Shown here one piece after another: positions 15,420-17,055 of a stretch of 64,000 bases of DNA (position 1 is the stretch's first letter; every line of letters starts with the position of its first letter). This stretch comes from Caulobacter sp. Root655 (GTDB lineage Bacteria; Pseudomonadota; Alphaproteobacteria; Caulobacterales; Caulobacteraceae). The stretch spans positions 172,150 through 236,149 of the forward strand of contig NZ_LMHC01000027.1 of the NCBI RefSeq assembly GCF_001427665.1, given 5' to 3'. The notes under the pieces are model-generated. The model was not told the DNA's origin and ran no database searches. It worked only from the letters and a program-made list of their open reading frames with translations. The translations under genes and the position numbers were made by a program.

Positions 15420-15470
15420 CTAGAGCGCCCGGCCTGATGGCATCAGGCCGGGCGCTCTAGCCTTTTTCTT
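15420..15470 (+). terminator. strong hairpin plus T tract after the DUF6065 gene
   Basis: Twenty-base perfect arms (15420-15439 and 15441-15460) around one base form a 41-bp near-palindrome, CTAGAGCGCCCGGCCTGATG and its complement, followed by CCTTTTTCTT. Read as RNA this is a good intrinsic terminator for the plus-strand gene. Its last CTAG is also the left edge of the 66-bp repeat at 15457. Confidence 0.7.
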
Positions 15471-15522
15471 GGCGCGTTTTCTTCACGCGAACCGGTATCC
15501 ACTTCGCTTGAAAACGCTCTAG
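15457..15522. repeat. CTAG-bounded repeat with 44-bp stem core, copy 1
   Basis: CTAG, a T-rich spacer, a 44-bp core (15474-15517) beginning GCGTTTTC and ending GAAAACGC, then TCTAG. Inside the core GCGAA and TTCGC form a second pair around CCGGTATCCAC. The terminal CTAG provides the TAG stop of the minus-strand gene at 15519. Confidence 0.85.
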
Positions 15523-15947
15523 CGTCCCGTCGGCGAGGGCGGCGGGCGCGGCGAGGACCTCGCCGGTCCGCCCTGCCGGTACAGCGACACCCGAACGGTC
15601 TCGTCGGGCTGGCGCCAGACGCCGTCGATGCGGCCGGAATTGGTCAGCCGTCCCTCGAACACGCCAGAGATCTGGCGGAACTCGATGTGGACGGTGTCGC
15701 CCTCGACGCGCAGGGCGCTGGGCTTGAGCCGTTCGCCGCCGAGGGCCTGGTTGACGGGGCGGGTTTTCACCCGGGCGCGCGGGCCCGGCTCGAACACCAG
15801 CTCCACCCAGACGGGTTCGGCGGTTTCGAGCACGCCGGTCCAGGCTCCGGCGAAGGCGGACTGCGACTGCGACCAGGCGGCCGGGGCGACGGCCAGGGTC
15901 GTCACGGTCAGGCCGGCGGCCAGCCAGGGGCGGATCGTCATGAGCAC
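15519..15947 (-). CDS. small exported hypothetical protein
   Basis: A 142-residue protein (140 from the alternative ATG at 15941) with a convincing signal peptide ending A-W-S-Q at about residue 27. The mature part begins F-A-G-A-W-T-G-V-L-E and is predicted beta-rich (F-E-G-R-L-T-N-S-G-R-I-D-G-V-W), like small lipocalin-type or DUF proteins that measure a scaffold of F-x-G-x-W motifs. No enzyme motif is seen. The C-terminal 15 residues are Pro/Arg/Ser rich, and the stop codon lies inside a dispersed repeat, so the tail may be a late addition. Confidence 0.65.
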   Translation of the reverse strand: MLMTIRPWLAAGLTVTTLAVAPAAWSQSQSAFAGAWTGVLETAEPVWVELVFEPGPRARVKTRPVNQALGGERLKPSALRVEGDTVHIEFRQISGVFEGRLTNSGRIDGVWRQPDETVRVSLYRQGGPARSSPRPPPSPTGR

Positions 15948-16048
15948 TCTCTTTAAGGTGTCGATGGGGAGACGTCGATGGCCGCGACACGCGCGGCCGT
16001 CGCGCGCGGACCTGGAGCCTCCGACCTGATTGCATCAGGCCGGGGGCT

Positions 16049-16115
16049 CTAGCCTTCTGTTTTGGCGCGCTTTCTTCACGCGAACCGGTGTCCACTTCGC
16101 TTGAAAACGCTCTAG
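16049..16115. repeat. CTAG-bounded repeat with 44-bp stem core, copy 2
   Basis: The same unit as at 15457: core 16067-16110 with ends GCGCTTTC and GAAAACGC (one mismatched pair). A degenerate version of the copy 1 palindrome (about 16010-16052) precedes it. Its final CTAG supplies the TAG stop at 16112 of the outer-membrane protein gene. Confidence 0.85.
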
Positions 16116-16735
16116 AAGTGGACGACGCCGCCGATCGACAGGCGGGTTTCCTTGGAGTCGATCTTCAGCTTGTCGCCACCCTTGAAGGTCGCGGTCTTGT
16201 CGCCGTAGCTCACCCGGGTGAGTTCGCCGCGCAGGCCGAAGGTTTCGCTGAGCTTCTGCTCGTAACCGACGCCGTAGACCATGCCCTGCTGGGTCAGGGT
16301 CTTCTTCGAGCCCGGAACCGAGGCTTCCAGCTTGCGGCGCTCCAGTCCGACCTTGCCGTAGAGCAGGCCGCTCTCGCCGAGCGCCATGCCGACCCGCGCG
16401 GCGCCGCTGTAGCGGAACTTGGGGTCCAGATGGACCTTGGTCGCGCCGAAGGTCTTCGAGGACTCACCGCCGCCGCCGCTCAGCGCGCCCTCGGCGCCCA
16501 GATAGAGGTTGCCGCCCAGAACCGTGCCGTAGCCCGCGAAGCCGCCGAAGTTGAAGCCGGTCTTGTCGGACGAGCCCTTCAGGGCCGGGCCGGTGGTCGG
16601 GGTGTAGATCAGTTCGTTCTTGGGCTTGGCGTAGCCGACTTCGCCGCCGACGTAGAAGCCGCCCTGGTCCTGGGCCAGGGCCGGGGTGATCGCGACCGCG
16701 GCGAGGGCGGCGGCGAGGCAGAGGGTCTTCATCAT
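16112..16735 (-). CDS. outer-membrane beta-barrel protein
   Basis: A 207-residue protein with a signal peptide (A-L-A-Q near 21-22) and a mature part of alternating amphipathic strands: G-G-F-Y-V-G-G-E-V-G-Y-A, F-N-F-G-G-F-A-G-Y-G, L-Y-L-G-A-E-G-A, ending V-V-H-F, i.e. a terminal Phe as required for BAM recognition. This is the OmpA/OmpW-like eight-strand small barrel type. ATG 16735 is chosen because GGAG lies 6 nt upstream; the earlier in-frame ATG (16747) overlaps that site. The function (porin, adhesin or structural) is not determined. The stop codon comes from the repeat at 16049-16115. Confidence 0.8.
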   Translation of the reverse strand: MMKTLCLAAALAAVAITPALAQDQGGFYVGGEVGYAKPKNELIYTPTTGPALKGSSDKTGFNFGGFAGYGTVLGGNLYLGAEGALSGGGGESSKTFGATKVHLDPKFRYSGAARVGMALGESGLLYGKVGLERRKLEASVPGSKKTLTQQGMVYGVGYEQKLSETFGLRGELTRVSYGDKTATFKGGDKLKIDSKETRLSIGGVVHF

Positions 16736-17055
16736 TTGAAACTCCATGCATTTGCGGAGGCCGACGACACCGCCAACCCGAAGCCAGGCCTTGGTGAAGG
16801 CTGCGCGTGGAGGGATTGCGCGCGAAGCGTGGAGATCGCGTGGGGATGACCTTAAGAGTTATTCATTTGCCAGAGGGGCGCTCGGAGGGCCTGCATCCCC
16901 CCTTGCCCGCGGTGTTTCACCGAGCCTCGGCGCGATCTCCACGATCTCTCGACACTCGCGGCCTAGAACTTCTTGTTTTTACGCATTTTCTTCACGCGGA
17001 CCGGTAGCCGCTTCGCTCGAAAATGCTCTAGCCGCCCCTGTTTCAGGAACCGACG
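16736..17055. other. 320-bp divergent intergenic region
   Basis: Between the outer-membrane protein gene (minus) and the response-regulator gene (plus). It should hold both promoters. The only structured element seen is the third CTAG-bounded repeat at 16963-17031, ending 24 bp before the regulator's ATG. No coding frame is convincing. Confidence 0.6.
16963..17031. repeat. CTAG-bounded repeat with 44-bp stem core, copy 3
   Basis: CTAG, spacer, core 16983-17026 with ends GCATTTTC and GAAAATGC, then CTAG. Compared with copy 1 the third base pair of the outer stem has changed from G-C to A-T on both sides, keeping pairing. It lies in the 5' region of the response-regulator gene. Confidence 0.85.

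Follow-up and report, generated by a model that had tools for sequence, protein, structure and literature searches.

A TA-bounded two-hairpin repeat of Caulobacter sp. Root655, probably a non-autonomous MITE that inserts into existing stop codons

The 64,000-nt stretch of Caulobacter sp. Root655 DNA analysed here (the window; contig NZ_LMHC01000027.1, positions 172,150 to 236,149) was found to carry three copies of a repeat that is probably a non-autonomous MITE of the CIR/RIME-like kind, inserted at TA by a transposase acting in trans, with the adjacent stop codons as its target and the C-termini of the proteins unchanged. The TA target and its duplication, the exact abutment on stop codons, the unchanged position of the stops in a relative and the occurrence of the P2 hairpin across the class are directly supported. 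The mobilising enzyme would be a transposase of the IS630 family, now absent from the genome itself.

The three copies are present at the cores given in the initial annotation (15474-15517, 16067-16110 and 16983-17026) and all have the same orientation. The 44-bp core had been taken as the unit, and the cores are real, but in copies 1 and 2 they form only the right half of an element of about 100 bp, in which a palindrome (P1) is followed by a T-rich linker and a second palindrome (P2); the CTAG to the left of these two cores is the end of P1. Copy 3 consists of linker and P2 without P1. A 33-nt core probe allowing at most 3 mismatches found copies 1 and 2 (chance expectation 0.00), and copy 3 belongs with them to one 75-nt family, D1, at 76% identity. 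CTAG, described as rare, is indeed under-represented in the window (42 observed versus 68 expected). As had also been noted, the CTAG to the right of copy 1 and that of copy 2 each hold the stop codon of a minus-strand gene, and the edge of a CTAG-bounded, hairpin-forming repeat thus lies on two stop codons. The features are as follows.

15423 to 15519, plus strand: copy 1, whole element (P1, linker and P2); absent from Caulobacter sp. AP07
15421-15422 and 15520-15521: TA bounding copy 1, inside CTAG at 15420 and 15519
15420 to 15460, unstranded: P1 palindrome of copy 1, 20-bp arms, 100% complementary
15461 to 15473, plus strand: T-rich linker of copy 1; the CAAAACAA-type linker recurs across the class
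15474 to 15517, plus strand: P2 hairpin of copy 1, stem GCGTTTTC/GAAAACGC; the loop, conserved on the minus strand, is AAGTGGNNACCGGTT
15519 to 15521, minus strand: TAG stop of the exported-protein gene, at the right edge of the element; TAA at the same position in AP07
15519 to 15947, minus strand: gene for a small exported protein of 142 aa, without Pfam match
16015 to 16112, plus strand: copy 2, whole element; absent from AP07
16012-16015 and 16112-16115: edges of copy 2, the left CTAG decayed to CTGG, the right one CTAG
16012 to 16052, unstranded: P1 palindrome of copy 2
16067 to 16110, plus strand: P2 hairpin of copy 2
16112 to 16114, minus strand: TAG stop of the outer-membrane-protein gene, at the right edge of the element; TGA at the same position in AP07
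16112 to 16747, minus strand: gene for an outer-membrane beta-barrel protein of 211 aa (PF13505)
16966 to 17028, plus strand: copy 3 (linker and P2), bounded by CTAG at 16963 and 17028; the left boundary is uncertain, AP07 reading CCAG at that place
16983 to 17026, plus strand: P2 hairpin of copy 3, stem GCATTTTC/GAAAATGC

A separate perfect 13-bp inverted repeat, CGTGGAGATCGCG/CGCGATCTCCACG, is found at 16828-16840 and 16931-16943 of the window, 90 nt apart, between the outer-membrane gene and a divergent response-regulator gene, and is kept in AP07.

Copies were collected genome-wide, as the initial annotation had proposed, by pattern search and region fetches. In the 5.2-Mb genome a degenerate P2 pattern had 70 matches and its reversed control had 1; 66 distinct copies were extracted, about 40 of which carry P1. 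In two copies (L008 and L027) P1 is replaced by unrelated palindromes while linker and P2 are the same, which argues that the element is modular. There are 39 copies in Caulobacter sp. AP07, the nearest named relative (DNA blocks 89-96% identical over the region), and few or none in most other sampled members of the genus, a distribution indicating recent expansion of the subfamily. Rfam family RF02600 led to a second CIR-like subfamily in the same genome (L253-L257), in which the P2 stem reads GCATCGT/ACGATGC, the loop is closely related and three of the five copies (L254, L255 and L257) have GATTC at the P1 loop. Beyond the genus, the exact loop AAGTGGNNACCGGTT occurs in 43 of 385 genomes of the class, several of which hold 10 to 205 copies (0 to 1 in the reversed control); in the plasmid collection there were seven records, from Bradyrhizobium, Xanthobacter, Bosea and Sinorhizobium. 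The 205 exact loop copies belong to an alphaproteobacterial genome of 1.9 Mb (G432; L127-L134), which also has an IS630 element with TAGAGCATKATCC ends (L218). Tandem repeats of the P2 unit, spaced at about 60 bp, were seen in two further alphaproteobacterial genomes (L100 and L143).

The insertion site was defined by searching AP07 with the joined flanks of 36 copies and retrieving the matching sites. About twelve clean empty sites equal the filled site minus the element and minus one TA, as in GCGCTAGAAGG, CGCTTTAACGG, CCACTAAGGGG and GTTCTAGGGCC. The target is a pre-existing TA, mostly within CTAG; since CTAA and TTAA also serve, TA alone is duplicated, and the element itself supplies the G that follows the left TA. 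At two sites (L202 and L206) convergent genes end at one shared CTAG in AP07, and here each has its own TAG. Three sites (L214, L215 and L216) are filled in both genomes. At the sites of copy 2 and L186, AP07 has TGA where TAG or TAA was expected at the target, and at copies 1 and 3 and some other sites the differences from AP07 exceed the insertion. Gain of the element rather than its loss is the more parsimonious reading of the pairs. The AP07 orthologue of the L040 site (L200) shows TAGAGC-like ends around GCTCGAAAA with the remainder of P2 absent, and is possibly a deletion remnant or a partial element.

Stop codons were found very often at the edges of the element. Among genes pointing their 3' end into the P2 side, 28 of 41 stop exactly at the element edge (23 TAG, 3 TAA and 2 TGA), and the left-edge TAG is the stop of 13 left-hand genes on the P1 side; these counts are approximate, as the gene calls come from a purpose-written simple codon-usage caller. 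Of the noncoding CTAG sites of the window outside the elements, 10 of 28 are themselves stop codons, a proportion with which the 28 of 66 copies at stops agree (p = 0.25), so that a special preference for stops need not be invoked beyond targeting of CTAG.

In the proposed mechanism, the element would be a small non-autonomous MITE of one or two TA-bounded hairpins, which a trans-acting transposase would insert at TA, preferably in CTAG, with duplication of the TA. Here CTAG is rare within genes and frequent at their ends, so that surviving insertions are intergenic and very often lie within a stop codon. As both ends of the element start with G, the duplicated TA followed by this G gives TAG on either side, making insertion in a stop codon harmless, and convergent genes sharing one CTAG each keep a stop. 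The adjacent stop codons would then be the target and not the product of insertion, leaving the C-termini as they were.

The position at gene ends might instead reflect selection, the element being retained as a transcription terminator or as a stabiliser of mRNA 3' ends, which we consider unlikely. P1 of copy 1 with its T-tract (15461-15470) does score as a predicted plus-strand terminator, and only 7 of 67 copies lie between divergent genes, compared with 14 of 59 gene pairs of the window (p = 0.009), while many lie between convergent ones. Both observations fit terminator use, but the divergent deficit is equally explained by simple avoidance of promoters. Furthermore, abutment exact to a single base would not be expected from selection for function, P1 is missing from many copies, copy 3 itself sits between divergent genes, and stem pairs are lost without compensation in individual copies.

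This last point bears on the covariation that the initial annotation had seen in the stem. The paired change between subfamilies stands, pairing being kept: at the third pair of the stem, 43 of the 66 copies have A-T, 20 have G-C and 3 have something else. However, it is the single covarying pair of the window subfamily, and most remaining stem changes are single and uncompensated. The A-T and G-C subfamilies are therefore two founder lineages whose copies are decaying. A statistical test of covariation, also suggested in that annotation, was more telling when run across the class. A hairpin with at least 9 spanning pairs was found at 66 of 74 loop-bearing places, although a few of the folding ones match by chance within genes. 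With the true partner, stems of 7 bp or more were formed in 48 of the 74 places, compared with 78 of 1480 combinations when partners were swapped, and 33 distinct stems occur among the class P2 hairpins. As the loop AAGTGGNNACCGGTT is thus borne in other Alphaproteobacteria on unrelated yet self-pairing stems, P2 is a genuine covarying hairpin; it is real and old, and its loop is kept while the stems turn over. A loop found class-wide on free stems raises the question of what reads it.

Profile searches for the enzyme gave no match to the IS630 transposase (PF13358) in the genome itself (G000) or in G021. The ends of IS630 elements were screened elsewhere in the class, using all 256 tetramers X as TA-X...rc(X)-TA at 950-1250 bp around 31 IS630 genes. 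GAGC was the top TA-bounded terminal tetramer, found at 12 of the 31 loci (the next at 4); the twelve elements are all 1036-1060 bp long, and C precedes nearly all of their ends, giving CTAG. One of them (L250) ends in TAGAGCGTTTTCC, as does the P2 end here, and up to 10 bp are common, although the IS630 elements sharing GAGC ends come from other genomes and the shared terminus is short (4-10 bp). A generic search for inverted repeats at the ends of IS630 elements returned few pairs because these repeats are short. The ends, the target and the duplication agree with an alphaproteobacterial IS630 group, which suggests IS630-driven mobility and names an enzyme that can be tested. It is possible that the autonomous partner has been lost from this genome. 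The same sampling gave no IS630 for several of the loop-rich genomes, and nothing in the IS630 ends corresponds to the conserved P2 loop.

Two other enzymes were weighed as movers. An IS5-type transposase, which also targets YTAR, would be a rather improbable one. The argument for it is MITEPsy1 of Pseudomonas syringae, whose insertion sites are CTAG or YTAA and which has been attributed to an IS5-family element (PMC3189936); at 100 nt and with a CTAG target it resembles the present repeat, from which it differs in its 4-nt duplication, against TA only here, and in its 18-nt inverted repeats. In addition, the GAGC ends match the IS630 loci of the class, and neither DDE_Tnp_1 (PF01609) nor DUF4096 (PF13340) was found in G000 or G021. 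It is very unlikely that the repeat is a REP-like element whose hairpin is read by a Y1 (RAYT/IS200-type) transposase. The conservation of the loop on wholly replaced stems across the class, and an asymmetric internal loop that recurs in predicted folds, would suit such an enzyme, but no Y1 transposase (PF01797) was found in the genome itself or in the 205-copy genome G432, and duplication of TA does not fit this enzyme class.

The initial annotation had concluded that the repeat set the C-termini of two proteins, and proposed to compare orthologues lacking it. In AP07 all three window copies are absent. The AP07 outer-membrane protein ends in ...SIGGVVHF followed by TGA, at the position where TAG is found here, and the exported protein ends in ...SPTGQ and TAA, compared with ...SPTGR and TAG in the window, the stop being again in the same position. 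Less closely related outer-membrane orthologues (72% and 55% identity), which also lack the repeat, have F as their last residue in the corresponding position, as suits a beta-barrel protein (PF13505). As AP07 stops at the same codons without the element, the element did not set these C-termini, which is the outcome that the initial annotation had itself named as refuting its claim; at most, the spelling of the stop was changed, and the exported protein has Q in AP07 but R here as its final residue. Insertion into 3' coding regions with the supply of new stops and trimming of the proteins is thus hardly credible: it accounts for stop codons exactly at the element edge, but orthologues without the element stop at the identical codon, the stop is already present at the empty sites, and random coding insertion would lead two thirds of cases to read through the open frames of the element, deep read-through of which none was seen. 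For both window proteins it is refuted by AP07. Annotators should be wary of taking a stop codon within a repeat as evidence that the protein has been trimmed.

Among known systems, Br-REP1 and Br-REP2 of Bradyrhizobium (PMC5082802) were ruled out, their consensus sequences being different, and further Rfam matches (miRNA families, ctRNA_pGA1) were dismissed, as they match any perfect GC-rich hairpin. On IS630-type MITEs in Caulobacter or rhizobia the literature search found only the review PMC2229807. This describes RUP of Streptococcus pneumoniae, a non-autonomous element of about 107 bp with a TA target, for which an IS630 transposase has been proposed as mover; RUP and IS630-Spn1 differ from the present case in sequence and host, and here the arms fold separately and a resident IS630 is absent.

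Rfam RF02600 (BASRCI27, Brucella sRNA CI27) aligns end to end with the element, sharing the two-hairpin layout and an GGNNACCGG-like loop, at 38.5 bits, which is below its gathering score of 59.8. None of seven genomes was over the cut-off, and all seven gave sub-threshold matches to dispersed repeats (up to 40 in G432); of 14 named genomes used as controls, only Caulobacter vibrioides gave a match. BASRCI27 is catalogued as an sRNA rather than a mobile repeat, but probably belongs to the same group of repeats, and what RF02600 describes may be mobile. The Rhizobium intergenic mosaic element RIME1, reportedly described by Osteras in 1995, is about 108 bp long and intergenic, with two large palindromes; by this description it resembles the element in size, palindromes and location, and is likely to be related.

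The closest likeness is to CIR1-CIR4, the Caulobacter CcrM-associated intergenic repeats (Chen and Shapiro 2003, as reviewed in PMC2229807). Like the element, CIR are intergenic, about 100-110 bp long, built of two inverted-repeat arms and a linker with TA termini, and present in Caulobacter and other Alphaproteobacteria. Two arms and a linker over some 110 bp were found in copies 1 and 2 and in about 40 of the 66 copies, and TA is at the termini. In CIR, one arm is reported to have GANTC, the CcrM site, at its loop. In the window subfamily 38 of the 39 copies with a P1 lack this site, whereas the GCATCGT subfamily of the same genome has it in three of the five copies, and 9 of 16 P1 palindromes of the class contain it (12.5% expected by shuffling). 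The review marked the target duplication of CIR as unknown and left their mobility unresolved; the filled and empty pairs answer the question of duplication, the target being TA and TA being duplicated. We tentatively extend this to CIR/RIME-like repeats as a group, which may be IS630-driven MITEs, harmless in stop codons, with a P2 loop AAGTGGNNACCGGTT read in addition by some factor. The present element, set beside CIR by the description in the review, is most aptly described as a CIR-like variant that lacks the CcrM site.
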